NCBI GenBank assembly: GCA_963969365.1
Contig: OZ017749.1
Span: forward strand, 3,596,001 to 3,660,000
DNA: 64,000 nucleotides
From: Asterochloris sp. CNOR1
Taxonomy: Eukaryota > Chlorophyta > Trebouxiophyceae > Trebouxiales > Trebouxiaceae
Reading direction: 5' to 3'
Below are positions 19,341 to 52,600 of this stretch, in pieces. The stretch's first letter is position 1, and each line of letters begins with the position of its first letter. The position numbers and the translations under genes were made by a program. Below the pieces are notes generated by a model. It made no database searches, was not told the origin of the DNA, and saw only the letters and a program-made list of their open reading frames with translations.

Positions 19341-22300
19341 ATGAGCCACGGCCTGAAGAAAAGGCACCAACACTCATGCAGGCAGCACAGACAAGGCCTG
19401 GTGTGCCATGCAGTGGCGGCAAAGGAGGCACTTATGCAGCATGGAGCAATCTCGCTGCAAGGCACCTCCAGATCCCGGAACGAGGACAGATATGATGTTG
19501 CTGTGAGTGCCCAGTGCTGCTCCTACATTGATCATGGATATCTGGGATTGCCTCATGCACATGCTGGTCGGTCCCACGCAGCATATGCATGCAGCCCAGC
19601 TGCTCTGCACCAGCCGGTCTCAGACCGCAGCAGCTCATGCGCTGAAGCAGGCCAGCCGCTGTGAGCAGCCCATTGTGCAGAATTCTGCTGCCCTGCGCCT
19701 GACTTCTCTGTTGCAAAGATGACGGACGGCCCCTGCAACACTGCTGGTCCTGACAGAACAGGCAAGGCGCAGCCTTTCGCTTGAAGGAGGACAGCTAGCC
19801 CCCCCTACAATATGTACCTGCCTACACTGCAGGTCACCAGTGAGATTCAAGCCAGCCATGTGCACAATACAAGTCACATGGCCCCTGGCCACATTGCAGG
19901 CTTCTGGCAATGCTGGCACACTTGGGTTCAGGGCTGATTGCCAGGCGGCCGCCGATGCTGGCAGGTGGTCGCAGTGGACGCAGACCATGGTGTTTTGCTT
20001 CAAGCATGCCAGCTGGGGGGTGCCCAGATGCTCTCAATGCCGCCTGTAGCTTGTGGACAGTGATGAAAAAGAACAAGAAGCAGAGCCCTGTCAGCCAGCT
20101 GTCAGCCAGCTGGCTGACAGAATGCTGCTTCTTGATCCTCTGCCTCGCTGTTCACAAGCTCCTGTGTGCAGGGCACACAGACACCAGACAGCACTCCAGC
20201 TCATGGTGGAACCCAACATGCTGCCCTGCACCAACCCCTGGGGCCACAGTGCAGGGCGGCCCAGGGGGGCGCATCATTGATTGAAGCAGCAGACACTGCC
20301 CATGTCCACACTACAGGATCAGCTGCGGCATCTCAGGACCAAGTCTGGCCTGCTGGTTGGTAGCTTAGGAGCCCGTGTGCAGTGCAGGCTGCAGGTCACG
20401 GGAACCGGCGATGAGGGGCCAGTCGCATCCTAGCAGCCACCCAGCTGCCAGCCCCATCACACGTCAGGCTCTTGCATGCATGCTGCACCCAGCCCCAGTC
20501 AGGACAAGCTTGCTGTTTCACAAATGTCTGATTGATTGGCCTTTGACTGCAGGTCATAGAGGAGGCTGATGAGGGGCAGCCCTTTGCCTATGTGGGCGTA
20601 TTTGATGGCCACGGCGGCGTTCCCACCTCAGACTGGCTGGAGTCCAACTTCAGTGATTTTGTTGACCAGCACTGGGACGGGCCTCAGCGCGCTGTCCAGA
20701 GCATCACAGAGGCCTTCATGCAGGTGTGCCCTGCTGCAGCGTGGCTGACAGCAGTGACGGAGGACAGCGCAGTGCACAGTGTCACTACGGCCGTCTCTGC
20801 AGGTGCTGCCGGCCCCAGCGCGGACTGCAAAGCATCACAGAGGCCTTGAGACAAGCCGTGCAGCTGGCTGCGAGGGCATCAACAGGTTTCTTGTCTTCCT
20901 GTCTGACTGTCTGTGGACAGGCAAAGCTGCCTCCCATGAGCCACTCCTCCTGCCACCCCTCGACATTTGCTGCCTCGGCTGTCAGCCCTTGCAGACTGCA
21001 CAACTCAGCCACTGGTGGCCGCTCAGCAGACGGCGCTGCCAGCAGCCTTGCATACAGTATTGTATGAACAGTGGGTGCTCAGAACTGCGCCCTGCTGTCC
21101 ACTGCAGGCAGACAAGAAGCTGCTGGCGCCCAAGCGGGGCTTCCTGGGAGGCATGGGGGAGCGCGGCGTGGGCGGCTCCAAGTGCGGTGCCACGGCCGCA
21201 GTCGCGCTGCTGTACAAGGATGCGCAGGGGCGCAAACAGCTGCTGGCAGCCAACGCTGGCGATGCGCGTGTGGTGCTGGCGCGCAATGGCAAGGCCGTGC
21301 AGCTGACCACAGACCACGTGCCGGATATGTGAGCCTGGGGTCTGTGCAAGGCTTGTGACTGCTGCCCAGGGTGCCATCTGTCCCGCAACGGCGAGGCCGT
21401 GGAAGGGACCACTGCCCATGTGCCCAATATGTGAGCCTTTGCCTGGCCATGCTGCACAGCACTGCTGAGGGTTCGTGCCCGCAGTATGTGTGCTGCTCAC
21501 GCCATGCATTTGGCCTGTATCGGCAAGACTGTGCAGCTGACCACAGAGCACATGCTGGACATGTGAGCAGGCATGCAATGGTCAGGCTGCGCTGCATCCA
21601 GGTGGCAGGTGCAGGGTTGTGAGGCCCATCGCAGCCCACATGAGCGTGCAGACATGCGCTAAGGCTTTGTCGCAATGGTGCCTGCTGAACAGGGTGTACT
21701 TCCAGCTTGCCGACCACAGACCTGTGCAGCACATGTAGGCGCCTGCCTGGCCATGCTGCAGCCACTGACTTTGTGGGGAAGGGGGTTTGTGATGGCTGAT
21801 CACTGAACAGCGGTTGACATGTGAGCGCTGCAGGTTGCCATGGGGGTGCGATTGCTCTAAGGCTGTGCAAATCATCATGCACTGTGTGCCAGATCATTGG
21901 GCATGTCTGCTGGGCGTGCCCGTGCTGCATGTGTGCGCCTTGGCAGCGTTGTGGTGCCCATGGTCTGCACAATTCCATGCCTGTCTGCTTGTCCTTGACT
22001 GGTACGTGTGGGTGCTGTGACTGACAATCCCTCTGCAGCAGCTTGGCAGCTTCTGAGTTGCTGCTAGTCTGTCCATCTGTCTTCAGCTGCCATCTATGGG
22101 CTGCGACAGGCGCTGCCTTCATCTGGTGCAGGGAGGCTGAAAGGCTCAGGATTGAGAGGCTGAACCCTAACCCTAAGTTCCCGTTGGTGAGGTATATTGG
22201 TGGGACATGGCGAGTTGGAGGACTGCTGGCTCTATCTCGGGCCTTTGGCGATGCCTACCTGAAGGGCACCGGGCAGTTTGAGGGCGTCGCAGCTGGCAGC

Positions 22301-22819: not shown

Positions 22820-23041
22820 GCCTTCCCATTGATTTGAGACGCGTGATCATTTCATTCAAATGATTTCATTTATTCAGCTAGCAAGGCCAGACAGAGCAAC
22901 TGCCTCACGATGGTAACAAAAAGGTATCAGCCAGGCAGAAGTGCTGCAAAGGGCACCCTCATATATCATGATTGAATGTTGAATTGAAGCGGTGGATCTG
23001 AAGCAGACAACACAACACACGGACAGAACTATGTGAAAACT
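22820..23041. other. intergenic spacer between convergent genes
   Basis: A 222-bp spacer between the stop codons of the PP2C gene (+) and the TIC62-like gene (-). It is more AT-rich than its surroundings, with a repeated TTTCATT-like motif near 22850-22872. It should hold both 3' untranslated ends and poly(A) sites. Confidence 0.5.
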
Positions 23042-26000
23042 TCAGAGAACCATAGAGTACAGCTCAGAAGCAGGGCGCGGCAGCTCGCCTTGCTCTGCAA
23101 TGACCTCAACAACCTGCAGCAACACAGCTGGAAGCTTGTGGACCAAGACAGGCGACTGATCATTGTGAGAAAGACCAAGCTTGGTGCCTGCGGATGTGGG
23201 CCAAAGCCTGGATGCGGCGGCAAGGCAATGTACAAAGCAGCGAAGGGTGAACCTGTCACTGAAGGTGACCTGGTGGAGTTGCAGGAGCTTGGGACAGGCC
23301 TCGTTGCTGTATGTGCCCTGGTCAGCAGCGCGCTGTACAATCCGACATGGCAGTCATGGCAGCAGCCATGTGCTCAAAGCGGAAGCGATGCAGCAGCTTT
23401 GCACTGCATGCCCCTCACTGACAACCTGCCACAGCCCAAAGACACAGGCGATGGGCAAAGGCACTGCACTGCTGGGTATGGCAGCCAGTGCAGCAGGCAT
23501 CTGCTCAGGGTGCAAGCGATGCATCTGCTGTGTGCAGCAGCTGCGCAGTGGGCGCACCTTGTTGCTGGCAGCCCCCTCCACCAGAGCCTCAACACACAAG
23601 TCGGCCACCTGCGAGCGCAGAATGCTGCCAGGGCGCCTCTTAGGCGGCAGACCGAAGATGTTGGGTCCTGCACATGCAGGACATGGCATGGTCACCATGC
23701 AGAAGCAGCCCTGATGTGGTTCATGGCTGTGCCGGCTGTGCGACCAGCATGGAACCTCACAACACAGCCCACTGTCACTGTGAAGAGGCAGCCTTGATGT
23801 GAATGATGGCTGCACTGGCTGTGCCTCCTGCAAGGGGCCTCAGACCAAACAACACAGCCCAAGCTGCAGCACCTGGCCCTCCAAGACATGCATCAGCATG
23901 TGGGCCCCTGCCCATGCATGGCGGGGTGCAGTCACTGTGCAGAGGCAGCCCTGACGTGCTCGATGCCTGTGCTGGCCATGCGCCCTGCATGCAGCCGCAT
24001 CGCCCGCGCTGGCCATGCAGGTTGCGTGCGGCGTACGCTCGTTGAGGGGTTGACTGGCTTTTGACTAACGCACCAGGATGTGGGCCTGGCCCAGCACACG
24101 CATGGCAAAGCATGACAGGTGAGCAGAGGCAGCCCGGCGGTGCTTGATGCCAGCAACCAACCATGCACCTGCAGTCGTTCATTGCGACACTGGCAATTGC
24201 TGAGGCGCCTGCCTGGGTGGAGCAGTGCATAAGGGCCCCCTGCCGCTGCCATTCAGCTCTGGGCTGTGCTCTGGTGGTGCCAAGCGGCTTGTTCCCAGCT
24301 ATCTTGTGCTGCTGCCAGGGACAGAGCCACCTCCAGTGTCTACAAACTGCTGACAAGCACCGGCTCCAGTGGCGCCTTGAGGTGCCGCCGCTCCTCTCGG
24401 TGTGCCTGCTCAGCACGGCCTGAGAACCTCCGGGCAGAGCAAGAACTCACCTGTCATGATGATGCCGCCCTCCCTCTGCCCATCACGGACCTGATCCTGG
24501 AGGCCACCTGCAGGGCAAGCAACCCTATGTCACACCCATGTGCTGCAATATTCAACCCTCACACAGCATGCAGTGGGCATGCAGCTTATGCTTTTTCCTT
24601 TTCAACTTTTCTCTCTCTGTTTAGTCTCTGTGGTATGGCTTTTTCTGTTTGCTCTTTTTCTTTCTGGTTAGCTCTCTGCAGCCTCCTGTGCTCTACCAAC
24701 AATTGGGCTGCACTTGCAGTGATGAGAACCCAGCACGATTGCATGTGGTGAGACTTGTTGGCATGCGCAGCAGCAGCTGCAAGAGCAAGAGCTGACCAGG
24801 CAGGATGAGTGCAGGCCTGGGCATGCCACGCAGCAACCATGAGGAAATGGCTCTCCAGCAGGCAGCAGCAGCAGCCACAGAAGCTCACCCGGGCGGATGA
24901 TGGTGTAGTCCAAGCCAGAGCGCTGCAGCTCCTCCTCTGCCCTCTTCTTCCAGAAAAGAATCTGCACGAGGCAACTTCTGAGACTGCGCTGAGCTGGCGC
25001 AAGGGTTGTTGGCGTGGCTGCCAGTCACGCTAGATGCCATGGACTGGGGTCCTCAGCGCCAGCATGCACACACACAGATGGGCCAGCATGCACAGTGAGT
25101 GTAGCACTGCAGTTAACCGTTCTGCGTGCTGTCACAAGCATGCACAATGAACACAGTTTGGCAAGCAGAGCATGGACTGAACAGAGCGGCTCACCCCCCA
25201 AAAGAGGTTGAGTGGAAAGAGGGGGTCATCAGTGCCAATGGAGGTGACCAGAACAAACTTCTTCACACCTGCTGCCTTGGCTGCCGCAATCAGGTTGACG
25301 GTGCCCTGCAGAGAGCAGCAGACTGCTCAAGATCTGCTGTCTCTGGGCATTCATTGACGCATGCATTCTTTAGGCCCAGCAGCATACTCAGCAGCCCTGC
25401 AGACACCCTGCATTGTGCAGCAAGCAGCGCACAGCAGGCACATGGCTCAGCAGCAGCCCAGGCATGCCAGCAAGCGTGCCAGCAAGGTGAGAGTGGATAA
25501 GCATGCTCGAGGAAGTTTCCGTTGAGTGGCATGTCTTCGCCAGTATGGCTATGATATCCCTGTCAGGCAGGTGTGCAGCCAGAGTGTGTCTTGCCTGTGC
25601 AGGCCACGAGCCGCACCCTGCACCAAGCCAACTCCACCGGCACAGCAGCCACAGCACCAGCAAAAGGACACATCTTGGCCAAGCAATGCTTGCCTGATAG
25701 TCGACATTGTAGGGCGCCAGCGGCTGGAAGAGGCCTCCCTTTGCGCCTGTGGCACAGATGACCATGTTGCTGCAGGCACAGCGCACTCATCATTACAATA
25801 ACAATTGCTCAACATGGATAGCAGCGGGTGCCCCTGACTTATCATGACTTGCTCAGCGACAGACGCCCCGCCAGTGCCTATGCTGGCTGCACCCATCCTG
25901 ACACTGCACAGCGGCAGACACCTGGCAGGCGCCTGTGTTGCCTGCACCCAGCTCAATGCTGCACGGCAACAGACGCCTTGCAAGCACCTGCCCGTTCTGC

Positions 26001-27777
26001 ATACAGCTTGAAAAGGCACAGCAGCAGATGCGTGGCAGACGCCTGTGCTGGCCTGCACCCATCTTGACACTGCACAGCGGGAGACACCTTGCAAGCAGCA
26101 GTACAGCCTGAATACAGCTTGAGATTGCACAGCAGCACATGCCTGATCAGTGCCTGATGGCTACAGCATCTTTGACACTGCACCGCGGCCGACACCCAGC
26201 AGGCGCCTGTGCTGCCTGTACCCAGCTTTAAGCAGCACAGCGGCAGACTCCTGGCCAGTGTCTGTGATCATTGGACTCGTACAATGAGCAAGACTCCCAC
26301 ACAGTCAGCTGCGACCTTGCCGAAGGGGACGAAACATCTTAGCAAGAGAAGCAGACCATATGCTGAAAGCATTGATCTCGGTAAACTCTGCAGGCAAGTG
26401 CCAAGGCTGCACAGGCAGGCCCAAGCATGGGCTGCTGGCACATCGTTCCAGGCCTCACCAGTTGGCCAGTGGCTGTGGCAAGGTGTTGTACTGGTACACA
26501 TCTCCCTGGTGCAGCGTCACCCCCATCTCCGGGCCAGGCAGCTCACGGTACTGCAGGCAGCCATAACCCCTCAGTGCAGCCGGTGGCAAAAGTGCACTGG
26601 ACCAGCAAGGGCTGGTCAGTGCAGCCTGTGACAGGTATGACTCCTGTGCCCTCCAGGCCCGCCAGGCAACTGACACGCCTTGGGCCCCATATGCAGCCAA
26701 GGGGCGGCTGGGCACCCCATGAAAGGCACTAGCTGCTCAATGCAGCTCATGACAGGCATGCACAGAGTAGGCTTGTCCCTACACCACCTGTTGCTGCTAT
26801 GTGAACTGTGTGTGCATGCCAGTGAGTACACAGCACAGCCCAGGGACAGGCCGCTTTTGGTAAAACGGAGCCAGGCCATGCCTTGGGAGAAGCAGATTGG
26901 AGTTGTTGACACAAGCTGTGCCGTCTGGGCTGTGTTGCCGGTTTGGTGAATGTAGTGAGTCAAGAGTGCGCTTGCGGCAATTGTGATCCTGGCAGTTCCT
27001 TGGGGAACCAGGCTGAGCTCCTTGACATGAGCTGTGCCATGCAGATTGCTGTGTCACTCGTCTAAGCATGCCACTGAGTCTAGAGTGCATCTCGTGGGCC
27101 AGGCAGCTTGCAGCATTCAACAACCTGCCATGTTATGGTGCTCCAGGCTGAGCTTGCAGTGACATGAGCTGTTCCGATGCGTGGCAAAACAGTGTGCAGT
27201 TCATGCCCTGCGCAACCTGAGGCCAGGGACTGTAGGCGCCCCACAAGCACTCCAGCACTGACAGACTCACCCCTTTGGCAAAATCCCTCACAAGCGCTTT
27301 CACTGTTGCGCCCTCCCTGGCAAGCCTCTGCACCACCTGTCGCCCGACTCCACCAGTTGCGCCAGCAACCAGCACCCTGGCATCCTTGAAGCGCTCACTG
27401 CCAGCTGCGTTGACCAAGGAAGGACGTCTGGGCAGTGCTGTGCAGCAGTGGCTTCCTTCAAGTGCTTGCCACAAACATGCACACAATTTGGAGCTGACCT
27501 GAGGGCTGAGCTAAGGGGCTGCTGATTGGCACTACCTCAGCATCTGAGGGCTCCTCAAGCAAAGTATTGGCTCGCCTGCGTGACCTGCCAGGGGTCCCTG
27601 CAGGTATGCCGGCATGTCAGGTGATGCTCGCAACCATTGCTCACCAAACACCATCAAGGTACCTGCAGCAGCCCGTGCCCTGATGTGCAGAGCCCTTCTG
27701 GCGGGGGACCTGCTTGATGTGACCACACATGCTGAATTAGATGACTGGGGCTTTGCCCAGACTGTTGCCAGAGCCAT
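23042..27777 (-). CDS. TIC62-like chloroplast NAD(P)-binding Rossmann protein (atypical SDR)
   Basis: Nine exons join in phase on the minus strand: 27777-27663, 27404-27271, 26550-26459, 25769-25694, 25305-25195, 24961-24889, 24507-24451, 23667-23558 and 23113-23042, giving 279 residues. The N-terminus, MALATVWAKPQSSNSACVV followed by Arg- and Ala-rich sequence, looks like a chloroplast transit peptide. The dinucleotide-binding loop is VLVAGATGGVGRQVVQRL. Then come ICATGAKG, FVLVTSIGTDDPLFPLNLFW, a YTIIRPGGL motif, and the C-terminal VVEVIAEQGELPRP. Order and motifs match the Rossmann domain of TIC62 and related atypical SDR proteins, which bind NADP(H) and ferredoxin-NADP reductase in chloroplasts. 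The proline-rich FNR-binding repeats of land-plant TIC62 are absent. The intron after exon 4 starts with GC (gcaagc). Two introns are filled with minisatellite-like repeats. Confidence 0.9.
23685..24160. repeat. diverged intronic repeats in the TIC62-like gene
   Basis: Within the intron between exons 7 and 8 there are at least four diverged copies of a unit. It begins near GCAGAGGCAGCCCTGA and continues with GATGGCTGTGCTGGC-like sequence and a C/T-rich GCCCTGCA end. Copies start near 23698, 23786, 23938 and 24123, with spacings of about 90-185 bp. Confidence 0.65.
25850..26250. repeat. intronic minisatellite in the TIC62-like gene
   Basis: The intron between exons 3 and 4 contains about six to eight copies of a ~55-75 bp unit. 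Its core runs GCACAGCGGCAGACACC, then GGCAGGCGCCTGTG and CTGCACCCAGCT, with substitutions and small gaps. The copies cover nearly the whole interval. No coding sense is apparent. Confidence 0.8.
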
Positions 27778-27947
27778 GTTTATTACTATCGGTGATGCAG
27801 GGATCTGAAAGGCCACGAAGTACTTCAGAAGAAGGAAAGAGAACTTCAAAGGAAAGTCAGCAGACTGGGCAGAGAACCTCAGACAGTCAAGCAACTTGAC
27901 AAAAATTGGTGGTCCCCTCATTAGATCACCAGGACCAGCTGTAGATG

Positions 27948-30806
27948 TCAAAGGAGGAGCGATATGGGTCTGTTCATGGCAACATTCAAGGCGGCAAACT
28001 GCCCTATATGCAACAGGGCCTCACAGTCCCAGTCGCCATACTGCCTGATGTCCACCACATCCAGCGAGGCATGCTTTGCCAGCCAGTCAAAGGGCTCTCG
28101 CAGCATGCAGCAGTCTCCAGCAATATTGGGCTCCTGCCACGCAAGGCTGAGTAGGTCCAGGCAGGTCATCTGGAGCACCTCACGGGGCAGGCCATTGAGG
28201 GAGCAGGCATGCAGGTCAAGCACCTGCAAGGAGGTGAGCTGCGACATCTCTTTTGGCAGGCTGCCGATGGGGTTGTGGTCCAGCTGCAACTCATGCAGCT
28301 GCGGGATTGCGCATAATTCTGTGGGAACAAACAAGATGCCTGCTGAGCTGAGCTCTAGGATGGTCAGGGCAGTCCACAGCCTGACATTGTCGCCTGGGAA
28401 CCACTTTCCCTCAGAAAAGTTGTTGCCAGAGAACGAGGCGTGCCTCAGGTTTGGCGCCAGCTCAGGCAGGAAGTCAGGGATGTAGCTTAGGCCGGCCCCT
28501 TCAAGCTGCAGCTTGGTCAGGCTGCCGCACGGCCCCCGGGCTGTCCAGAGGTCCATGTTTAAGGGCAGGTCAATCAAAGCCAGCTTCTGCAGATGGGGGC
28601 CCAACGCAGGGACTGCCAGGTCCTGCACCTGCAGGCAGGCAGACAACCAGTCACACAAGAGTGCCAGGTCCTGCACCTGCAAGCATGCAAGGCAAGGCTG
28701 AGCAGGGAAAGCTGCAGCACTGCAGCGCAAGAGCAGCCACATCACACCAAGCCTGCAGATTGCGTCAACTGCTGAGTAGGCACCTGCATGCAGGCACCCA
28801 TGTTGCTGCGCAATGTGAGCTACATGCAGCTGTGGTTCACCATCAAGCCTTCATGTGGAACAGGAAGAATGCTACGGCACGTGACAGGTGCACGCGTGCA
28901 GTTGCTGCAGCATGCCTGCTGGCACAGCTTGCATCTGGCAGAGCCCTGCCTCTTTGCCTGTTGGCCTCACTAGATTCGGAGAAGCCTGGCAATGTGTACA
29001 GCCTCATGTGTACAGCCTCTCCATTCCTACCCTCCATGCAGCATGCTACATGGCCAAGCATGTCAGACAGGGTGAGTGCAGCCTCACATTGGCCATGTCC
29101 TCCATCTTCAGCCTGCGCAGCTCTGGCAACCCGAAAATGCAGGGCGCCACCGATGTTGTCTTTGCGGCACTCTGAATTCCTAACTCCTGCAGCCTTGACA
29201 GCGCCGAGAACTGCTCAGGCACCTGCAGCCAGTGGGGACTTGGTGGAGCCAGCTCATGACATGAAATAGGTCCAGCAACTGCAGCCTGGACAGCTCTGAG
29301 GAGCCAGTTGGTGGCTCTGAGGAAGGTGGTACTTGAAACAGCTGGCCCAGCAGTGGGGGTGTTTTAGCATTTGCACCCCAGACAACACTGAGGAGTAACA
29401 GGCCCTGCAATCAGCAGCACACAAGGATGCAAGGCTGCAGGCTCAGCATGAGTCGGAGCGGCTGCACCTCCGGCAGCCCAGTGCCCCACAGTGCTGGGGT
29501 GCACGCTGCTGGCTCAGGCCACCTCTGCAGCCCTACAAGACGCATCAGGTGGTCACTGCATCAGCACCACTGGCACCAGCTCCTCCAGTTCCCTAAACAT
29601 TGGGGCTGCCCCAGCCTGTGCAACAAAGCACAACCTGTTCATGCCTGTCAGGTGACCACTGCTCAGTGTACTATACACACTGGCAGCTAGCACTTGCAAA
29701 CAAGAGACCAACAGCTCCTGGTAGCCTCTGGCAGCCCTGCAAAGCCTGCACATGTTGCTGCAGCCTCCTAAGCACGCCCCCTGCCACGTCCCTTAGCCAC
29801 CCCTGAGCATGCGACACAAAGCCTCCTGTGTCCAATCCTCCAGCCCACCTCTGGCAGCCCCACGAAGCCCTGCACAGGCTCCTCCAGCCTGTGGCTCAGG
29901 CGCAGGGATGTGAGCGCAGTCAAGCTGGCCAGGGCGGCAGCACTGCTTTCTTGCAGCCTCTCCAGAGACTCGTCCAGGTGCAAGCGCTGCAGGCATGCCC
30001 CCAGCTGGGGGTTTTGGGGGGCCCGCTGGAAGATGTCCGACGTCAGCACCTCGCCACCTGTAACACAGAGCTCATGTTCACGGCTCATCACCTCCTGGGT
30101 CTTGCGGGCCTGAATGCTACTTGAGCTGCCAGATAAGAAGTAGAAAAGCTAAAGTCCAGCAGGTCAGCCCCAAGCAGCTGCATGCTTGGAGCGGCAAGCA
30201 CAGGCTGGTGCTTTGTCGCCATGCACTGCAGCCATGCAGGCGCAGCACCTATGCTCACCTGTGGCACTGAGGTGCAGCGGGATCCGCTGCTCAGCCATGG
30301 CTCCCACCAGCACGGGAAGCGTGCTGGCCATGACGCGGGTCTGCCCGGTGTCCGTGGTCTCCTGATAGTTCAGGCCATCAAAGCGCAGCCACAGGCTGGC
30401 GATGCCTGCGCTGCGCTTGCCTAGCCAGGCCGCCAGCTTGTAAACCAGGTACAGACTGCTCTCATCAAAGTCGCGGAGGCACAGGTGTCCCCACAGGTCA
30501 TTGAAACCAGGCCTGCACACAGAGCACAGCCATGGGTCACTAACAGTATATCTTTTTACGAAGCAGATGCTGTCTATGCACAGCAGGTTCCAACCAAGGA
30601 CTCAAGCAGAGCAGTGTTCAGGCTCTGGATAGCACTGTGCTGCTGCACGACAGCATTGGCACTCACCTGTCCATGACTTTGCGGCACTGCTGGCTGACCA
30701 GTGGCATCTGGAGCTTGGTCTTCGTGTCCAGCAGCCTGATTATTCTCATGAGCAGATCATCTGGGAGCTGAGGCCCCATGCTGCGTTTGTTGCTGGAGGG
30801 CTCCAT
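27948..30806 (-). CDS. F-box / leucine-rich-repeat protein
   Basis: Exon 1 (30806-30667) encodes an F-box-like start, LPDDLLMRIIRLLDTKTKL followed by LVSQQCRKVMD. Exon 2 (30512-30259) and exon 3 (30057 to about 29849) join in phase. They contain leucine-rich segments such as LQRLHLDESLERLQE and LTALTSLRLSHRLEE. Middle exons are less certain; one near 29226-29070 reads LSRLQELGIQ and LPELRRLKMEDM. The last exon (28628-27948) holds regular LRRs, LTILELSSAGILFVPTEL, LHELQLDHNPIGSLPKEM and LQVLDLHACSLNGLPREV, and ends at the stop at 27948. F-box/LRR proteins usually recruit substrates to SCF ubiquitin ligases, with the LRRs choosing the target. The target here is unknown. The start codon is 96 bp from that of the divergent PER1 gene. 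Confidence 0.85.
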
Positions 30807-30902: not shown

Positions 30903-32406
30903 ATGAGCGCCAAAAAACTCATGGCCAGACTCTTGATGATCTGCTGCCTGGCAGGCCTACTCCGCGAGGCTCATGCCAGCCACGGCGATCGTGATGCAGC
31001 ATTCCAGTCCTGCGTCAGCAGCTGTCAAGCTGAGGGCTGTGTCAGGCTGCCGGTGGACAAGCAGGCCAAGCTGGGTTCCAACAGCATTGCGTGTGACGCA
31101 GCCTGCCCAGAGCGCAATGGACTGGAGGTGCCATGGGCGCTGCAGGCGATGCGCTGGTCCTGCGCCGATGACTGCAAGTGCGTCCACTTCATCTGATGTC
31201 TTCTTCAGCAGACACAAGTGCTCAAACAGCCAGCACACCTGGCCTATGACCACCACTGCAGCTCCGCCATTCAGATGAGTTTGGCAGGGAGTCCACCAAG
31301 AGCCTCTCCCTGCCTGCAGGTACCGCTGCATGCACTTGCGTGAGTACTTCAAGCAGCGCATCTACAGGCGCCAGGCCCGCCCCCTGGACAAGTACTTTGG
31401 CAAGTGGCCCTTCCGCCGCGTGTGGGGGGTGCAGGAGCCCATGTCTGTGCTGTTCTCCATCTGCAATCTTGTGGTGAGGGCTGCCTGTGCTGAAGGAATT
31501 TGCCGCAGGGTTCCTTCAGGCACCTGCTGCAGGCTAGGAGTTTTGGGACAATGCTCCCTCAACCCTGACTCAAGACACAGAAGAGTGCAAATTCTTCCTG
31601 CTGCAGCAGGCAAAGCTGCACTGTTTGGGCATGGTGGTCCAGGCGACTGTAGCACTGCAGACTGAGAGGTGTCAGAATTAGCTTGGGCACTGTTCCCTCA
31701 AGCCTGACTGGCACCCCACGAGTCCTCCAAACACGTGCTGCCGCTGCAGGCACAGCTGCACTGTCTGGGCAAGGTCGTCCTGGCGGCCGTCAGAGACTGG
31801 AGGGCAACCCGCAGCAGCAGCAACCGGCTGAGCTACGCCTACTGGCCGTTGTGGATATTGTATGGCGCAGTCTCCATCAACGCCTGGCTGTGGTCAGTGG
31901 TGTTCCATGCCAGGGACACCCCACGCACAGAGAGGCTTGACTACATGAGCGCTGACGCAGATGTGGCACTGGCGCTCTTCATCTCAGCCATGCGCACCAC
32001 AGAGCAGCCTGCTCACTTGTGGTTTGTGTGGGCAGCGCCAGTGTGCCTACTGCTCAGCTGCCATGTCTACTACATGCTGTACGTGCTATTCGACTACGGG
32101 CTGAACATGAAGCTGTGCTTGGGGGCAGGCATCCTGCAGATGGCGCTGTGGTGTTGGTTTGTACACAGGCGCCAGCATCAGCACCGAAACACACTTTACG
32201 CTTTTGTGTTGCTCATGAACTCTGCCTTGCTCTTAGAAGTGCTGGACTTCCAGCCCATCAAGGGATTGCTGGATGCCCATGCAGTCTGGCACGCCTGCAC
32301 CATCCCCTTGACATATTTGTGGTACGACTTTGTGTTTGCTGACGCCGAATGGGTGCGCATGTCAGCAAGGGTGGCATCTCCAAGCAAAAAGATTCATGCC
32401 AGATGA
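30903..32406 (+). CDS. PGAP3: PER1/PGAP3 family GPI-lipid remodelling protein
   Basis: Three exons, 30903-31177, 31320-31473 and 31750-32406, join in phase to about 361 residues. The chosen ATG gives MSAKKLMARLLMICCLAGLL, a signal peptide. The luminal part has the family's paired cysteines, ending in WSCADDCKYRCM across the first splice junction, then the conserved KYFGKWPFRRVWGVQEP. Exon 3 encodes several membrane spans with WSVVFHARDTPRTERLDYMS, the conserved His/Asp/Arg catalytic region. Near the C-terminus is LLDAHAVWHACTIPLT with further conserved histidines. Per1 in yeast and PGAP3 in animals remove an acyl chain from GPI anchors in the ER or Golgi. All key residues are present, and the length is close to that of the family. 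Intron 2 holds a decayed copy of the exon-3 start. Confidence 0.95.
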
Positions 32407-32537: not shown

Positions 32538-35500
32538 TCACTGTCGGGTGAGCTGCAAGAGCAGCTGATGCCGAAGAGCAGGGTCAGTTGCAGCCTGCCC
32601 CCTCGTGGCAAGGGTGATAGTGCTGCTTGCATGCTTCTCTACACCACGCGCCACCATACACATGTGGGCTGCCTCACAGACCACCATGACCCCCATTGAC
32701 TCAGCCATGTGCTGCACAGCATCAGCTATCTGCTGAGTCAGCCTCTCCTGGATCTGAAGCCTCCAGCTGAACATCTCCACTGCCTGGCGGATGACAGCCT
32801 CATCGGTCCTGTGGCGGGCACCAACCACAGCCACCCTGGCTGTGCCATGGAAGGGCAGCATGTGGTGCTCGCACTGGGATGAAAAGCGCAGGCTGAACTG
32901 CAGGACCTCATGGGGCGAGGCCAGCGCCTGGCTGCGCAGCGGCATGAGCTGCTGGGCTCCAGAGGTGGAGCCCAACAGGAGGTGGACATAGCGCTCGGGG
33001 GAGCTCAGGAGGCCCTGCAGGGAATGCAGGTGCAGGCTGTGAACAAATCACGAGCAGGCAGACACACTGCATGGGGACTGGTAGAAGCCCTGAAGATGAG
33101 GCACACACTCGGAGTCAGAAGGAGGCGGAGGCCAGCAGACAGATGGACATAGCTGCAGGCTCACAGCAAGCCCACTCGAGCTCGCTGGGGATTGCTACTG
33201 GCGCTGCAGGGAGGCAGCGGCAGGCTTGACAGAAGGCCAGGACGCAGGTGAGCATAGTGCTCTCGGCAGCGCTAATGCTCCTGCCAGGCTGGCAGGCTGG
33301 GCTCAAGTTTGGCAGTGCAGCCCTGAGATGAAGCACCAGCAGGCGGGCGTCAAGCACTGGCTGCAGGTGCAAGCTGACATGCAGAGCAGAACCTGCTGTG
33401 ATAGCATGCGACAGGGCTGTGCATGCAGTCAACCAGGCCAGCGCCAAGCGCAAAGCAGGCAAGGGGCGGCCACAAATACAAGGCCCCCACCTCTCTGTCT
33501 GGGTTCTCCCCGATCTCCACCAGGATGGTTCGCACGGCTCGCTGCATGTCTGCGCAGCTCACTCCATGCCGCCTTGTCCCCAAGCACTCCCCAGCACCCG
33601 CTGCCAAACCCCCCAGGGCCGTGGCGCTGCCGACAAAGGGCCCTGCAGCGCTGGCAGGTGCAGGCGCTGCTGTCGCAGAGATGGACTCGGCCTCTGCCTC
33701 GTCCAGGTCAGGGCTGGAGGGTGGTTGGACCTCCAGCCCTGGCAGGGGCCCCCCCTCAGCGTCCATTGCACTGGGCAGGTCCTCAGCGTTGCTGAAGTAG
33801 TGCACCGAGGCGACGGTGCCGCAGGTGGCATTGCGTGCGAAGATGCGCTGGGAGGCGTTGCTGGCCAGAAAGGAGGCTGCAGGGGACTCTGGGCTGGAGC
33901 TGAGGAGGGCCTCCCCATCAAAGCTCTGCCCGGGGGCCAGCAGCGAGCTCTGCTGCTGCTGCTGGGCATCCTGGAGGGCCTCGGGGCCGGCGGGGCGGAC
34001 CCGCTTCATGGCCATGGCCCGGCGGCTCTTGCGCTGCTGGCGCAGGCGGCTGTGCACGGTGGGGCTGGCGCAGCCTGGCTCGGGGCAGCCTGCTGGCTGC
34101 GCAGGCCCTGGGGCAGCAGTTGGGGTGATGGGCTCCTGGATGGATGTCCCGGCCCCTGCAGCACTGCTGTGGCTGGAGGCGTCCAGCTGCACGCGTGTCT
34201 GGGGCAGCGCTTTGGTCGGCACCTGGATGCCGTGCAGCTGGAGTAGCACCAGGAACTCCTGCAGAGGCAGAAGGGGAGCCTTCTGAGCAGACAGCGTCTG
34301 GGCATGAATGTGTGGCTTGCAGCACTGCCTGCAGCGGCCGCAGGGAAGGGTTTCTGGGCTCAGCATTCATTGTGCACTTGGGCAGCGCCCCAGGAAAGAG
34401 TCCCAAGCAGCAGCCCACATGAAGCTTGCAGCGGTTCCGCACAAGGTGCAGCATCTGTGCTGCAAAAGTATCAGCTGAGTGCTGGAAGTCAGCATGCAGG
34501 GCCACTGGGCGAGCAAAGGCAATCAAGCTGTAGACTCGGAAGCCGCTGTGGCAGCAGAGGGCAGGGTGGCGGGCAGAAGAAGGCCACGGGCACCGACTGA
34601 CCTGCATGCTCATGCCCTGGGAGTCCTCAAAGCAGCCGCTGGCCGCCGTGCTGACTGAGTATGATGCCTCGGGGCCATCAGCCAGGTGCCGTGCTTCCAG
34701 GACGATGGCAGCCCCCAGGGGCTGCAAGGACTGCAGGGCACAACGGCGAGGGTCAGTGGGCCAGCCACTGAGGGGCAGCGTGTCGGTGTGAGGCACGCCC
34801 CAGCAGTGCAAGGCAGCCTGTCATGGAGTGGAGCCATGTTCAAGTGTTGTGGCTGCCATGTGCCAGATGTGTGCGCTTGGCAGCCTGCAGCAGCACTGTT
34901 GACGGCACCATAGCTGCTGCCGCAGCACTGCTGCATGCCATCACAGGCCCTGCGCCAGATCTTCATCTATGTAGATGTTAGGAAAAGCTTGCTCCTCCAT
35001 CGGCATCAGCATGGAAGCGAGGCCCACCTGCTGCAGGGCCGCCAGCATTTGGTTGGTCAGCCTCTGCTGCGACTGCAACTGACGTGCAAACAGCTTGGCC
35101 AGCCGCGCCAGCTTGCTGAGCCCCAGGACGACCCCTTCACGTGGCATGTAGGCCACATGGCAGCGCCCGTAGAAGGGGAGCAGCGTGGCCTCGCTGGTGG
35201 AGGCAAACTCAATGTCTCGCACAATGACCATGCCGTCTGGGGACTGGGTCAACAGGGGCTCATGGAAGAGAGCGCCTCCAATCACGCTGCAGGCAGTAGA
35301 GGGGTGTGAGGTGCATGCACGTGGACTGGCAGCCTTCCCTGCTCATTGGCGCTGCCGTCTGGCGACTGGGTCAGCATGACAGAGCGCCGCTGTAGATATG
35401 CTGCAGGTAGGGGGAGGGGGTGATGGGCACGTGCAGACTGGTATGCGCTGCTGCAGCCTAGGGTGGCACAAGCCACCAGATGACCAGACCAGGTTGCTTG

Positions 35501-38203: not shown

Positions 38204-38998
38204 ATTGGCTGCTGAAAATTTGTTGAGCACTGGGGTTGATGAGAGAGCTGGGAGTTGGAAGTGAAAGTACAGCTTCCGGCACAATCTGTAGGCAGAAAGA
38301 AAGGTGCTGAAATACCTTTGTTGAATTCATGATGCTATCTCGACCTTTCTGGCGGTGATGTAGGAGCATGCCCTTGGTACCTGGGGGCACTTTGACCCTG
38401 TTGCAAGGTGGGCATTGGCACATGGGCCAAAGAACAGCAGCAGGCTTGCCTGTGAATTGCTGGCTGTTGCCCCATCATGGCTGTTAATTGCCTGCACATC
38501 AAGCAAGTTGCTGCATCCCTGCTCGATGCTCAACACGTAGATGATCAATGCCTGCAGATCCTGCACAGAGCCTCCTTCTTTCCCCAACTTATTTGGCAGA
38601 TACCCACCAAGCTTCAGGACACAGGCAGCATGCCTTCATGCATTGTGTCCCTGGCAGCTCAATCAACCGATGCCTCAGCATGGCGCTTACACCTGATGAC
38701 TGCCGCTCCTGCTTCAGCCTTGAACCCCCAGCTTCTGTGCAATGCTGTAAGGCCTATGCACTTCTCTGCTGAAGGGGGTGTTCTGCTGTGGCAACACTTT
38801 GCAGTACCAATCACTGTATCCTGTCTTGTGTCTCAGTCAGCACTGGCAAGCTCCTTGGTGCCACACGGCAGCCAGCGGCGAAAGCAGCCTTTTACCCCAC
38901 TGTCAGTGATGCTTGACAGGTCAATGCAGAGGCGCTGACAAGGCGCAGGCTTTCATGCACAGGCTGGCAAGCTTACTTCCACCACAGCTGTGCCCAGC
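38204..38998. other. intergenic region between divergent LEA-type genes
   Basis: About 800 bp between the start of the minus-strand LEA gene and the putative start of the plus-strand LEA-like gene. Short open frames exist on both strands, but none can be defended. It probably contains both promoters. The first ~150 bp upstream of the LEA start codon are relatively AT-rich. Confidence 0.4.
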
Positions 38999-41900: not shown

Positions 41901-43247
41901 ACCCTGACTGGCACCAAGTCAAGTTTAGCAACCTGACATGGATGTGTACGATTTATCTCCAGCCCGTGCACTTTGTATCAGATGCTAATTCCAAACTCAC
42001 TTGTTCATCGACAATGTGTCAACCAACCCACATACTGCCGCAACCAGCCTGCCTCCAACAGCACGAACCCCCTCAACTATGCCATCTGCATGCTGTTGCA
42101 GGCAGTCATCATCGGCACGGCCAACTTGCCCACCAGCGAGGCAGGGCGCTTCATCGCTGACAGCGCCGCAGAGTTTGCTGGGGAGGGGTACCCCCAGCGT
42201 CTGGCAGGCTCTGCTGCTGAGAAGGCTGCTGACAAGGCCAGGCAGGCTGCCATCAAGATCGCAGAGCGCGCAAGGGAGGCTGCTGGCAGGTGTGCCTGCA
42301 TGGTGCCATACCGGTGCCCATCGACATATTGAGGAGGGCCATGCCAAGAGTCTGGCAGGCTTGGGGTCCAGGCTGCTGGCAAGGCCAAGCAGGCTGCCAC
42401 CAGGGCCGCACAGCGCACAAGGGAGGCTGCTGCCAGCGTGCCTGCATGGTGCTCCACCGGTGGTGCTCGATGTGCTTTACACACTTCAGGTTGTCTTGGT
42501 GGTGTCACGAGCAGCAGTGAGCGGACGGAGTAAGGTCAAGCAGGCTGCCACCTGAGCCGCAGAGTTGTCAAAAAGCCGCCAGCAGGTGTGCATGCCTGGC
42601 GCTCCGTCCTTGATGATCAGTCTTGTGATGGCCCAATGGCAGCCCATTCCGGACCAAATTAGACATCAGCTGATGGCATAGGCAGTGGCATGATCTGCAT
42701 AAACCGCTTGACAGCAGGATGTGGCCCTAATCAACCAGCACACACTGACTGCTGGGGTTGTGCTCCTGGCCGGGCCCCTGCCTGGAACAGCAGCGCCACT
42801 GTGTGCCTGCACAGCACTGCTGTGTGGCTGTACATTCAGTGGTGCTGCCGCCGCAGGAGTGCTGAGCAGGCCAAGGCATGTGGCAGGGGCATGGGCGAGG
42901 CGTTGGAGGCCACCTATGAGAACACCAAGGAGATGGCTGCCCGGGCAGCTGAGAGAGCCAGGGAGGCTGGCCAGCAGGCAGCAGAAAGCTCCAGGGAGAC
43001 AGCCAAGGGAGCCAAGGAGAGGGCCAAGGAGAGGGCTGCCAGCACAGCAAGCGAGCTTGACTCTCAGGGCCGCCAGGCTGTAAACGGCGGCCGCAGCAAG
43101 ACAGAAGACAGAGGCGATCCGGCTGCCAGAGAGGCTGCTGAGACAGCAGGCAGTGCCGTTGACAGGGCCAAGCAGGCTGCCAGAGAGACCTTCCAGGCCG
43201 CAGAGGACAGGGCTGAGCGGGGGGCTGACAAGGCACGCGAGGCATAG
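38999..43247 (+). CDS. alanine-rich LEA-like / helical-repeat protein
   Basis: The exons with the best support are 39633 to about 39800, 40150-40318, 40707-40796, 41220-41411, 42101-42288 and 42857-43247. They encode long amphipathic, Ala-, Glu-, Arg- and Lys-rich helices, for example YAARLARAAAKYAEAEADDA, QLADAAEGTAQQALQVAD, ADKARQAAIKIAERAREAAG and, at the end, KEMAARAAERAREAGQQAAE and VDRAKQAARETFQAAEDRAE. The last exon is like group-3 LEA proteins, with stop TAG at 43245. The N-terminus is unsure. An ATG at 38999 gives MKHLVSMLGPAVPAAVMLAP before a GT donor, but other starts are possible. It may act as a desiccation or cold protectant, but a structural coiled-coil or apolipoprotein-like role fits equally. 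Introns carry decayed copies of exon edges near 41000, 41140, 42355 and 42530. Confidence 0.7.
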
Positions 43248-43915: not shown

Positions 43916-45057
43916 CTAAGAAGTTGTCTTCTTCTTGTCGCCAAACTCCTTGCCGGCGCCTTTCTGCACCCGGATGCTCTTGTGAACTGCGCTTGCCCGC
44001 GCCAGAGCTGCTTTCTGCAGCAGGATGGGAATAGGTCAATGGCAAAGCCACGGGCTGGCTCTTGAGCATGTCTCTCCTTGCAGAAAATGCCTGACAGCCA
44101 AGCTTAAGCACGGGAACCAGTGCCTGAGCTCTGCAGGCTCAGCCCACCAGTGCCAGCACAAGTGGGTCCTCGCCTTGAGGCCTGGCCTGTATCCCGGCCC
44201 ATCCTTGCCTAGCAGCAAAGCTAATCCAGTGCCTGAGCGCTGCAGGCTCAGCACACCAGTGTCTGGTACACGTGTCCTCACCTTGAGGTCTGGCCTGTAC
44301 CCCTGCACCTCCTTGCCCAGGTTGCCTGACAGCAAGCGGATGTGCCTCTTGCGGGCGGCACCAACCTTGGCACTGACAGGGCGGTTCACGGAGCCTTTGC
44401 GATTCCGGACAACCTTCACATTTCCCTGGTCCTGCTCGATGTGCAGCGTCTTGTCATTGCAGATGCCTGCAGCAGAAACGCGCACGGTCATGATGTGAGG
44501 CATGGGATGGATGCAATCAGCAAGGCTGCTGCTATGTGAGCCTGGTCTTATTGTTGCAGATGCCTGCAGCGGGGTCCGCACAGCCGTGCTGTGAGGCATG
44601 GCTACTGCAGACAGCAAGGCTGCTCCATGGGCACAGCCTTGTTGGAACAGATGCCAGCAGTAGGGACCGTACGGCCATGATGTGTGGCATGGACTATGCA
44701 GACCGCAAGGCTGCTCCATGAGCACGGCCTTGTCGGTGCAGATGCCTGCAGCAGGGGCAATGTGGGCACAACAACACGCATGGCTGCTTGATGCGCAGGA
44801 TGCTGTCATTGCAAAAGCCTGCAGCAGGGACAGAATGGCTGCAATGAGAAGCACGCCCAGATGCACATGGGTCTTGCCATTGCATATGCCTGCAGACCTG
44901 AGTACTTGTATGAGTGCTTGTTGTACAAGTTTCCAGGCTCTTTGCTGAGGATGATGCCCCCGCCCTTGCGGTTGGTGCCGTTCAGGCCCTTGACAATGTG
45001 GCTGTTCCAGCCCTTCACAATCTGCCACACAAGCTGGGGGCTGTGCTCCTGGACCAT
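43916..45057 (-). CDS. RPL28: 60S ribosomal protein eL28
   Basis: Three exons, 45057-44898, 44466-44282 and 44014-43916, join in phase to 147 residues, close to the ~143 of plant eL28. Motifs are LVWQIVKGWNSHIVKGLNG, then SKEPGNLYNKHSYKYSG, which runs across the first junction into ICNDKTLHIEQ (plant: SGLANKKTVTIQ). Exon 2 ends with GYRPDLK and exon 3 begins KAALARASAVHKSIRV, as in plant eL28 YRPDLKKAALARLS. It is a structural protein of the large cytosolic ribosomal subunit. The start at 45057 fits the family length; an upstream in-frame ATG at 45087 would add ten residues. Intron 1 is built of about five tandem ~90-bp repeats that each contain a decayed copy of the acceptor and first bases of exon 2. 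Intron 2 has one copy of the exon-2 donor edge. Confidence 0.95.
44467..44897 (-). repeat. RPL28: ladder of exon-2 acceptor-edge copies in eL28 intron 1
   Basis: Five diverged repeats at spacings of about 93, 91, 90, 75 and 75 bp. Each contains, on the minus strand, CTGCAG followed by a version of GCATCTGCAATGACAAGAC, the true start of exon 2 at 44466. Copies are centred near 44559, 44650, 44740, 44817 and 44888. Sequences between the cores (GCTGCTCCATG and GGCATGG-like blocks on the plus strand) repeat too, so whole ~90-bp units were multiplied. They fill the entire intron. Confidence 0.88.
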
Positions 45058-49647: not shown

Positions 49648-52600
49648 ATGAAGCGTTTGATGCTGCTGGCCCTTCTGGCCTTCGTGCTGGCATTCGCATC
49701 GGTGAGATTAGGACTCCTGCTTAAGCAGGTGCCACCTGGAAGCTGTCCCTGTCACTGGGTGTCAGTAGGTGATTATGCTTCTGCACAGCGCAGTGCTGCC
49801 CCACACCTGCTGTGCTGCATCTTGCATGGGACGCAGACGTTGGCGCACACCCTCAGTGACTGAGAGCATCATGCAGACTATGTGAGATTCCCTCCTTGCT
49901 GTGCAGGCAAGCACACTCGACAGCGTCAAGGCCAAAGTTGGCCTTCACCAGGACACAGCGACTGACAGGTGAGAGCGCCTGCAGCAGCATCTTCGTGGTG
50001 CCTGTCTCCTAAGCATTCACAGCAAATTGCACACAGGCTGTACTGCCTGCCTGTATGACCTGGTGAATAGAGTCTGGCCTGTCCTCCCAGGTGTGCCAAT
50101 CAGTGGGATCGGTGGGGTTGCCTTCAATACCTCAGTTTGCTGTCTTTACCAGGAGTCTGCAAGTCCTCTGTGCCTTGCTTGCACTGGCAGATGCCTTCAT
50201 GTGCAGGTGGCACCTTGGCATGTGACCTGCTCTCATGCATGCTGGATGTGCGATCTGCAGTTGTGATGTACTGTGGCCTTCTGCCTGCCTTCCAGCAGCT
50301 TCCTTTGGACAGATTGCCTGCAGGGCTTGTGTCAGCTGCTTCCCATGCGGCTGCAGCCTTTACACTGCTGGGACAGTGTATTACACTTTGTATGCCTGCC
50401 GTGCCAGTGCAGCCGCTTAACACGCTGCAATCAAGCTGCAAGACCTGCTCAAATGCAGGCTGGCTCCCCGTACCAAAAAGCCTGCGCGTTCTGCAGGGTC
50501 AGGGCAGTCGCCTCAGTAGACGCTGGAACTGCAGCCTCCAGAGCTCTCAACTTGTGTCTTGTCACCCCTCCTGCCTTGCAGGGCTCCGGCAGCCGCCTCA
50601 GCTGGCGCACTTGCACCTCACGAAACCCCGATGTATGCGGTCTTCCTGACCACCCCTCCACCACCTCTACTTGCAGGGCCCTGCACAGCTGCCAAGGCCC
50701 CCACTGGCTCACAGCCCAGATTTCCTCCCACTGCAATGAGTTCCCACTGCAATCACCTCCCCCACCTCTGCCTGCAGGGCCCGCGCGGCGGCCTCAGATG
50801 CAGCAGCCAAGGCCCAGGAGTACGCCGAGAAGGCTGCAGAGGCAACCCGCCAGCAGGCCGGCCAGGCCGCAGACCTCGGGGGTGAGTTTGCACATCATGC
50901 TGTTCGGGCTGCCCGCGGCCAACCTGCCGGGGCCGGCATCTGGCAGAGCCTCAAGGACAAGGTTCGGGGCACCCCTGCACAGGGGCAGGCACAGGATGCC
51001 GGGGCTGCTGCCGGCCAGTTTGCCCACGACACAGCCGCCACTGCCGGCCGCTATGCCTCTGATGCTGCTGGCTATGCCTCGAGCAAGGGCAAGCAGGGCG
51101 CCTCAGCTGCAGGAGACTACCTGTCAGAGTTTGGGGCCCACGCCAGCAACACTGCCCGCGGGCAGGACAGCGTGTGGACCAAGCTCAGGGCAGCTCTTTT
51201 TGGGGAGTCCACTGCCGAGCGCCACGGCAAGGCAGCAGGGCAGTACGCCTCAGATGCCTCAGCCACAGCTGGGCAGTACGCGTCCGACGCCGCAGCCACA
51301 GCCAAGCAGTACGCCAGGCAGACCGCCGACAAGGCCACACAGACTGGCAGCGACCTGGCAGGCAGCGCCAAGCAGCAGGCAGCCGAGTTTGCGCAGCATA
51401 CTCAGCAACAGGCCCAGGGTGGGTCCACTGGCGTGTGGGCCTCCCTCAAGACCATGTTTGGGGGCCAGCCCAGCCCAGCAGCCTCAGCCGGCGACACAGC
51501 AGGGCAGTACCTGTACAAGGGCAAGGCCGCAGCCTCAGATGCTGCTGGGCAGGCAGCTGACAAGAGCAGCGATTTGGCAGCCTCAGCCAAGGCAGCTGCA
51601 GGTGACCAGGCCCCAGAACAACCCTTCTCCACCCAAGCCCTCAGCCGCCCTCCGCGCCTCCGCATGCACCGAAGCCCGATGTGCCCTGTCTGCATCGAAG
51701 TGTGCCGTGGTCCTGCGCCTGTCATGAGCCCTGCTGGCTGCACACCATTGTCAACCTTCGTCCTCACTCAACATCTGAAGCCTGCTGTGCCCTGCCTGCA
51801 TCACAGCCTCCTGTGCTTTGCTGCGCCCGCTGCTGACAGACATTTCCTGCTGGCTGCATGTAATGCGCAACCTTCAACCTATACCTACAGCAATATGCAT
51901 GCGCTTAAGACCTTAGAACCCTCCAGAACTCCCCAAGCCTCCTGCCTGCACTCCCTTGAACACCTAGAGGCCCCTAGAGCTGCCCTTTCACACAGCTGAC
52001 CCCTGCCGCTGCACCTGCCTGCAGGCGATGCAGTCGCCCGTGCCCAGGCAGCCGCAGCTGAGGCAAAGGAGGCCGCCGCAGAGTTTGCAGACCACGCCAC
52101 CAACCGGGCACAGGGCCAGAACCCTGGCATCTGGAGCACCATCAAGAGCAAGGTGACAGGTGGCAGCCCCGCATCCAGCGCCGGCGACACGGTGGGGAAC
52201 ACCCTGAACCAGGCTGGGCAGCAGGCTGCTGATGGCTGGGACTCAGCCAAGGAGACTGCCTCCGACTATGCACGTAAGCTGTAGTCTTAAGGCATGTATG
52301 CTCGTAGGGCACTAAACTTCAACTTTTGTGACTGCGCAAGTCAATTGTAGTCGTGGAACTCCCTTGTGGGTCCTGTTTGTTCTTGGGATACGGGTGCAGG
52401 TGCATGGAAGGAGGCTACTGACAGCTGTGACCCGCTCACAGCAGTCTCGTGTGGGGTGTGTCTCTATTGCCTGTCATCGTGAGTGTAAGCAGTGCAAGGA
52501 TGGGCAGCATGCTCATCGGCTTGATTGGGCAGAGCAGGTTGATGTCAGGCGCTGCTGTGTGGCATGTCCAGTTGTGTGTGTCAAAGGTTAAGCACCATGC

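Follow-up and report, generated by a model that had tools for sequence, protein, structure and literature searches.

Decayed local copies of exon edges in the introns of a green alga, Asterochloris sp. CNOR1

The window analysed here is a stretch of 64,000 nucleotides from the green alga Asterochloris sp. CNOR1 (assembly GCA_963969365.1, contig OZ017749.1, positions 3,596,001 to 3,660,000), and a number of its introns contain decayed copies of the edge of the exon that adjoins them. Base counts give the 64-kb window a GC content of 57%, and its genes are rich in introns. An initial annotation had described such copies, together with the copied splice signals, in seven genes between positions 20724 and 50777. 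We modelled 14 genes with 74 introns from reading frames. Pfam supports the models of PP2C, an NAD(P)H-binding reductase (SDR), an F-box/LRR gene, Per1, GTP cyclohydrolase I, ribosomal eL28 and septin. LEA1 to LEA4 are working labels for LEA-like genes, and no Pfam match was obtained for LEA2 or for residues 1-252 of LEA4. Rfam gave no structured RNA at gathering score within the window, and no relatives of the window were confirmed in scans of viral contigs and genome contigs.

The gene models result from gene-finder runs made per gene with fixed tables, followed by curation by hand on frame, splice consensus and protein continuity. The gene finder called copies as small exons in five genes (PP2C, PER1, LEA2, eL28 and LEA4), and these were deleted by hand as a matter of judgement, together with other exons that seemed uncertain, such as those in GTP cyclohydrolase and septin. 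One end is off by one base in three of the 74 modelled introns. The second copy of an alpha/beta-hydrolase-like gene (12.9-18.6 kb), the 5' end of PP2C and the 3' end of SDR are outside the edge test described below.

Exon edges and their intronic copies

Local duplicates are frequent in the window irrespective of any gene model. Scoring +1 for a match and -1 for a mismatch, with a score of at least 16, the whole window holds 124 ungapped direct self-matches at offsets of 20-999. A set of 400 random offsets of 3-40 kb produced one match in 16.8 million cells, from which about 3.8 would be expected.

The edge test used coding bases only, namely the last or first 50 nt of an exon, and compared the match of each edge to its own adjoining intron with 1,500 length-matched draws from the introns of other genes, which sets a floor of p=0.0007. 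Twelve edges with an exon piece shorter than 30 nt were dropped, leaving 136 of 148. This is the comparison that the initial annotation had proposed, and over the 14 genes it yields a clear excess, as the adjoining intron beats all 1,500 draws for 17 of the 136 edges (p=0.0007). The same 17 are the discoveries at a Benjamini-Hochberg level of 5%. They are spread over 15 of the 74 introns and nine genes. Both kinds of edge are copied, as had been reported, with six donor and 11 acceptor edges among the 17. After exclusion of the repeat-coding genes (LEA1-4 and F-box/LRR) 10 of 87 edges are still significant.

The direct orientation of the copies was likewise borne out: with reverse complements none of the 136 edges reached p<=0.0034 and two reached p<=0.01, which is no excess of inverted copies. 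When one random non-adjacent intron of the same gene was used instead, 0 of 121 edges passed p<=0.005 and one passed p<=0.01, and the distinction that had been drawn from introner-type dispersed insertions therefore stands. When edges were compared with the intron that flanks the other end of their exon, four of 66 reached p<=0.005, where less than one was expected. Furthermore, exon windows placed 0, 50, 100, 150 and 200 nt from the junction gave 17 of 129, 3 of 87, 4 of 59, 2 of 33 and 1 of 23 edges at p<=0.01. The latter two results indicate a local signal that peaks at the junction but is not confined to it, a weaker excess being present nearby.

The best copy lies 48-234 bp away for 12 of the 17 edges and 279-565 bp away for five. 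The aligned exon part measures 18-67 nt over the 17 edges, at an identity of 76-94% in 16 of them and 69% in one. Introns with an edge copy number 12 of 41 inside the interval first described (20724-50777) and 3 of 33 outside it, and their median length is 476 nt, compared with 268 nt for introns that have none (p=0.0003). The presence of decayed local copies of exon edges inside adjoining introns is confirmed by these comparisons. Regarding the seven genes originally named, PP2C, F-box/LRR, PER1, GTP cyclohydrolase, the LEA-like gene at 40-43 kb and eL28 pass the edge test; in the large LEA-like gene the intron ending at 50777 fails it (p=0.12), and introns 6 and 8 of that gene, which lie beyond the interval first described, pass.

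The copies look like sequence that drifts as non-coding DNA. Mismatches were counted by codon position in all significant edges except that of SDR intron 1, with frames assigned by script; in these 16 edges they affect 28 of 194, 30 of 198 and 42 of 191 sites of codon positions 1, 2 and 3, respectively (0.14, 0.15 and 0.22). Differences concentrated at position 3 would be expected if a copy still served as exon. The near-equal values at positions 1 and 2 are consistent with an unconstrained copy that is compared with an exon variable mainly at position 3. In addition, the offset is not a multiple of three in 11 of the 17 edges. Among 24 copied splice signals located by alignment, AG is kept in 13 of 15 acceptor copies, four of these scored positions belonging to the weak LEA4 intron 2 family and being aligned on its CTGCAG, and GT is kept in four of nine donor copies; the difference (Fisher p=0.06) is not relied on. 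Several copies score within the range of working sites, among them those at offsets 279 and 352 in eL28 and at offset 234 in PP2C. Judged from sequence, a role of the copies as functional decoy sites is not supported.

Tandem units at individual loci

Strict gapped extension was run from 19 chosen seeds, and the span of the homology was divided by the offset, giving the share of the copy spacing that is covered by homology. This ratio is 0.76-0.96 in five seeds (eL28 intron 2, LEA2 intron 4, PER1 intron 2, GTP cyclohydrolase intron 2 and PP2C intron 2), and in five more the span exceeds one unit (F-box introns 3 and 5, eL28 intron 1, SDR intron 2 and septin intron 2). By a far-offset control, the rest of the unit is similar at the same offset in seven of 17 families (p<=0.036). 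The best-preserved cases are head-to-tail duplications inside the gene, a description that applies to those families only. At least three adjacent units of constant period are found in eL28 intron 1 (span 3.4 units) and SDR intron 2 (7.0 units), and are not shown for most other families.

The eL28 gene, on the minus strand, holds both the best-preserved case and a ladder of five edge copies. Its intron 2 (44015-44281) carries a 108-bp tandem duplication across the donor (44117..44320), with 81 of 97 positions identical and a span/offset of 0.88; the copied donor reads AAG and then, past the splice position, GCGAGG. Intron 1 (44467-44897) is occupied by a tandem array of about 93 bp per unit (44432..44895), the first unit of which lies inside the exon, and copies of the acceptor edge occur at offsets 97, 188, 279, 352 and 423. 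The array spans 319 at an offset of 93-94 (236 of 331 identical), and 386 of the 431 bases of the intron are within detectable duplicates. The farthest copy starts 8 nt past the donor and is identical to the start of the downstream exon at 24 of 30 positions, so that the original donor side of intron 1 is missing and the intron that preceded the array is barely visible. The initial annotation had proposed that introns grow stepwise by copying across a splice junction and that the working splice site thereby moves. From the nearest to the farthest copy, the identities to the edge are 0.64, 0.64, 0.71, 0.71 and 0.47, and the copies at 188 and 279 are closest to each other (0.78). Given the lack of a gradient with distance and the close resemblance of the inner copies, the ladder behaves as a tandem array and not as growth at the working site. 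None of our results shows a working site that has moved, the single hint being the missing donor side of this intron. At 44871-44897 the intron opens with GT, CTGCAG and the copy of the downstream exon start, placing the donor and an acceptor-like site almost in contact. Spliced without the copies, eL28 matches Pfam L28e over positions 1-115 of 115.

Duplications across a junction are also found in LEA2, PER1 and GTP cyclohydrolase I. In LEA2 intron 4 (42179..42602, plus strand) a unit of about 147 bp is duplicated in tandem across the donor at 42290 (109 of 138 identical, span/offset 0.93), and a further copy lies near 42532-42602. This is the least certain case: with an offset divisible by three, the copy may represent an additional coding repeat. 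PER1 intron 2 (31474-31749, plus strand) contains a 140-bp tandem duplication across the acceptor at 31750 (31543..31802; 90 of 122 identical, span/offset 0.84), and the Pfam Per1 domain is covered from 1 to 257 of 257 when the copy is spliced out. GTP cyclohydrolase I intron 2 (35287-35603, minus strand) has a duplication of about 122 bp across the acceptor at 35286 (35160..35429), with 29 of 36 exon bases shared, a span/offset of 0.76, an identity of 0.69 and a significant rest-of-unit test (p=0.016).

In PP2C (plus strand) two donor edges are copied. The 3' edge (20680-20716) of exon 20553-20723 reappears at 20811-20847 in intron 20724-21107 (20680..20847; 31 of 37 identical, offset 131, edge p=0.0007), although the unit is untraceable past the seed, with 0 of 94 further bases and a span/offset of 0.44. 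The exon ending at 21328 has copies at 21378-21438 and 21511-21568 in intron 21329-22131 (21276..21760; 48 of 61 and 47 of 58 identical) and an additional weak copy near 21723-21760. Here homology covers 0.96 of the 102-bp spacing, and the rest-of-unit test gives p=0.41. Without the copies the spliced model matches Pfam PP2C at 7.9e-33, covering 32-255 of 255. A telomere-like CCCTAACCCTAA was seen by eye in a coding exon of PP2C at 22163-22176.

The F-box/LRR gene, on the minus strand, shows three edge copies. The acceptor edge at 28628 of intron 5 (28629-28783) is copied 48 bp upstream and followed by units of about 48 bp (28611..28763; 17 of 18 exon bases identical, span 113 at offsets 40-48, rest-of-unit p=0.18). 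In intron 3 the donor edge is copied at an offset of 123-133 (29718..29880; 34 of 42 identical, p=0.0007), the splice position scored in the copy reading GC, and the acceptor edge at an offset of 92 (29187..29300; 19 of 22 identical, p=0.0007).

Septin intron 5 (59048-60021, plus strand) lies outside the interval first described. On its donor side about 200 nt of the 3' end of the exon, with the donor, are duplicated at an offset of 211-228 (58848..59259), with ungapped matches at offsets 226, 228 and 211 (p=0.0007; rest-of-unit p=0.036). Its acceptor edge also has a copy (59858..60045; offset 151, 28 of 37 identical, p=0.0007), the best gapped match being at offset 367 and the unit untraceable (p=0.85). 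The SDR gene (minus strand) supplies an example that is free of exon sequence, namely a tandem array of about 55 bp per unit in intron 2 (25834..26266; span 378 at an offset of 53-55), reported by Tandem Repeats Finder at 25876-26255. In SDR intron 6 (23658..24155) the repeated unit extends 10 nt into the exon at 23667 (74 of 102 at offset 240), and the family was classed as intron-only in the count given below. Three of the 74 introns are of the GC-AG type, following exon ends 25694 (minus) in SDR, 35806 (minus) in GTP cyclohydrolase and 8926 (plus) in the alpha/beta-hydrolase gene, the last of which is placed one base off in our model.

In LEA4 (plus strand) the acceptor edge of intron 6 is copied at an offset of 344 (53835..54262; 34 of 49 identical, p=0.0007, span/offset 0.25) and that of intron 8 at an offset of 143 (55193..55374; 24 of 29 identical, p=0.0007, rest-of-unit p=0.034, span/offset 0.26). 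Intron 2 (49969-50777), which fails the edge test as stated above, has weak acceptor-edge-like copies at offsets 101, 196, 281 and 376 (50393..50811), with ungapped edge matches of 24 of 27, 25 of 33 and 30 of 43, and 24 of 32 between copies. A coding exon of LEA4 contains 33-nt (11-codon) tandem repeats at 53392-53592. Two small LEA-like paralogues, at 36856-38208 and 46690-48434, have the same seven-exon layout, and only short weak matches were found between the introns of LEA1 and LEA3.

A tandem segmental duplication of about 8 kb (4740-12715 and 12890-20723) carries two alpha/beta-hydrolase-like paralogues. Thirteen of their 16 introns are 70-88% identical and three are 94-97% identical; introns 10-11 and the exon between them are 96-100% identical between the copies, which suggests local gene conversion there. 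An acceptor-edge-like copy (9373-9393 versus 9518-9538) has a counterpart in the other paralogue; it fails the edge test (p=0.10) and, if real, predates the gene duplication. By eye we also noted a decayed piece of a PP2C exon near 12588-12715, a long inverted repeat with two arms of about 30 bases in intron 1 of the first alpha/beta-hydrolase copy (5182-5270) and, on the minus strand at 2750-3735, a long open frame that resembles a retrotransposon gag gene.

Origin of the copies

We consider it likely that ordinary short tandem duplication made the introns longer, and that selection acted as a filter that left the exons as they were. Short tandem duplications with units of about 50-230 bp would hit genes, and some would expand into small arrays. 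A unit that straddles a junction would deposit a duplicated exon edge and its splice signal in the intron if the outer site is still used, leaving the protein the same and the intron one unit longer, and duplications that enter the reading frame would be lost. The intronic copy would then drift as non-coding DNA and the exon copy would be held by selection, so that edge copies should be recognisable for longer than purely intronic ones. The locality, the direct orientation and the drift of the copies are observed features, as are the head-to-tail geometry of the best cases and the coexistence of intron-only duplications; the filter by selection is our reading of them, and continued use of the outer site is suggested by the continuity of reading frames and Pfam domains. 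The mutational route may be slippage, unequal exchange or template-switch repair, which are indistinguishable from the sequence here. The part of the initial annotation according to which local duplications across splice junctions have lengthened introns is supported.

Several observations weigh against this account or restrict it. In nine of the 19 seeds the span/offset is 0.16-0.66, either because the unit cannot be followed or because the paired copies pass over intervening members of an array, and in 10 of the 17 families no significant similarity is seen outside the seed; head-to-tail geometry is therefore not demonstrated for those families. The match in SDR intron 1 amounts to 21 nt at a distance of 565 bp and is not tandem-looking. 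Of the nine length differences of at least 40 nt between the alpha/beta-hydrolase paralogues, four of them intronic, not one is significant as a local duplicate (lowest p 0.066). This pair therefore shows no tandem lengthening after its duplication, which implies a process that either differs between genes or has not acted recently. Furthermore, 18 of 28 edge and intron-only families (64%) are edge families, which exceeds expectation (p 0.011, 0.038 and 0.055 for three age ranges), and duplicate families cover 60 of 17,514 non-genic bases compared with 3,335 of 25,113 intron bases. The near-emptiness of non-genic DNA argues against a purely uniform process, which would place some duplicates there.

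The last two results speak for a sharper version of the initial proposal, in which exon edges are duplicated preferentially by a mechanism linked to splice junctions or to transcription, such as R-loop repair synthesis at exon-intron boundaries. At a score of at least 16 there are 18 exon+intron, 10 intron-only, one non-genic, three exon-only and three mixed families. Uniform placement, with survivors having their copy in the intron, predicts 41% edge families with at least 16 exon bases, and a decay simulation with a protected exon copy predicts 41-47% depending on the age range; as the observed edge class needs 12 exon bases and the expectation 16, the comparison slightly favours the edge class. 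The preference for junctions is hence a borderline excess that depends on the decay model, and the existence of intron-only arrays speaks against it as well. Likewise, the non-genic deficit shrinks once families are counted. At the same score threshold 50 pairs fall in introns and one in non-genic DNA, a contrast inflated by the non-independence of pairs within arrays, whereas intron-only and non-genic families number 10 and one (P=0.025 for the whole window, 0.104 beyond 20.5 kb), a modest contrast. Some of the non-genic DNA may be young or derived from transposons. A special mechanism for copying edges is not needed, contrary to the initial proposal, and we regard a junction-tied process as rather improbable. 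A slightly better, though still low, chance is given to the wider speculation of a mutational ratchet, in which short tandem duplications are linked to transcribed DNA that contains introns and arise preferentially at exon-intron junctions. An event across a junction could then survive only if it made the intron longer. If so, introns would grow unit by unit as exons cannot, and green algae would possess long introns without any benefit of length.

It is very unlikely that the copies are real alternative or extra exons, that is partial exon duplications in use which our gene models miss. Although the gene finder took copies in five genes as small exons, and the LEA2 offset of 147 nt is a multiple of three, mismatches are about equally frequent at codon positions 1 and 2, 11 of the 17 offsets break the frame and the Pfam domains are continuous without the copies. 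The prospects are slimmer still for intron gain, in which the introns would have been created, not lengthened, by tandem duplication of exonic sequence. The copy of the downstream exon start 8 nt past the eL28 intron 1 donor (24 of 30) fits such an origin, but that intron is the only one of 63 in which the intron start resembles the start of the downstream exon, and among 64 introns there is none with an end that resembles the end of the upstream exon (p<=0.02 in both comparisons). Chance or composition, by which CTGCAG-rich and CAG/TGC-rich sequence would make stretches look alike, can practically be dismissed: the hexamer CTGCAG is indeed abundant, at 5.06 copies per kb of intron and 2.85 per kb of non-genic DNA, but the edges, made up of coding-side bases only, do not find such matches in introns of other genes, reverse complements or non-adjacent introns of the same gene, as the initial annotation had held for CTGCAG.

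Relation to known intron changes

Short tandem duplication filtered by selection, the explanation we prefer, has points in common with several known systems. Minisatellite-like tandem arrays occur in introns, and the arrays of eL28 intron 1 (unit of about 93 bp) and SDR intron 2 (about 55 bp) resemble them. Most edge families differ in having one detectable extra copy, and in eL28 the first unit lies inside a coding exon. Introner elements are related elements inserted at many genes, and both they and the copies described here alter the intron content of a genome. Unlike introners, the copies match the adjoining exon and not the introns of other genes (1,500 draws, this window only). Tandem exon duplication, in which a whole exon with both splice sites is repeated, was not found among the 80-nt edge alignments, which cover one edge each; the longest copy, in septin, includes about 200 of 253 exon bases.

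For Arabidopsis TOUCH3, a paper that cites the case (PMC4974935) mentions an internal gene duplication in which whole introns are included. The TOUCH3 case is likewise an intragenic tandem duplication of exon and intron sequence; as described there, a complete intron and both its flanks multiply and are kept, whereas in our window a single edge is duplicated and its copy would no longer be used. In Drosophila, according to a paper on intron sliding and exon duplication (PMC2891723), exonic sequence is duplicated and one copy becomes intron, giving a new intron position. An exonic duplicate ends up as intron in our case too, but we see no reason to think that the intron positions are new, except possibly in eL28 intron 1.

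On intron length, the passages seen of the Coccomyxa genome paper give a mean of 240 bp and contain nothing on copies of this kind (PMC3446292), and a passage of a comparative genomics study of Chlamydomonas states that no selective advantage is known for introns much longer than the minimum and that the driver of length is likely ancient (PMC8226300). In a literature search whose coverage excluded most subscription papers, we found no report of introns becoming longer through duplications across a splice junction.

The closest described system is intron gain by tandem genomic duplication (Rogers 1989, Hellsten et al. 2011, Gao and Lynch 2009), in which, according to the parts of two papers that treat it (PMC3443670, PMC4974935), a duplicated exonic AGGT gives rise to a new intron. 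As there, a short intragenic tandem unit would be spliced out here and the coding sequence could stay unchanged; in the predicted models of our genes the Pfam domains are continuous once the copies are spliced out. New introns bounded by two copies of one exonic segment were not found in the window beyond the one start-side match among 63 introns, in eL28, with 0 of 64 at the other end. The difference from intron gain as described in these sources is that the unit straddles an existing junction, so that an existing intron would be lengthened and not a new one created within an exon. Since exon edges are held by selection, the intronic copy marks a single lengthening event that can be roughly dated, and the edge copies form a readable fossil record of intron lengthening. 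With a signal in 15 of 74 introns, it seems feasible to measure across the genome how often such events occur, how large they are and how well they survive, and to follow how decoy splice signals decay.

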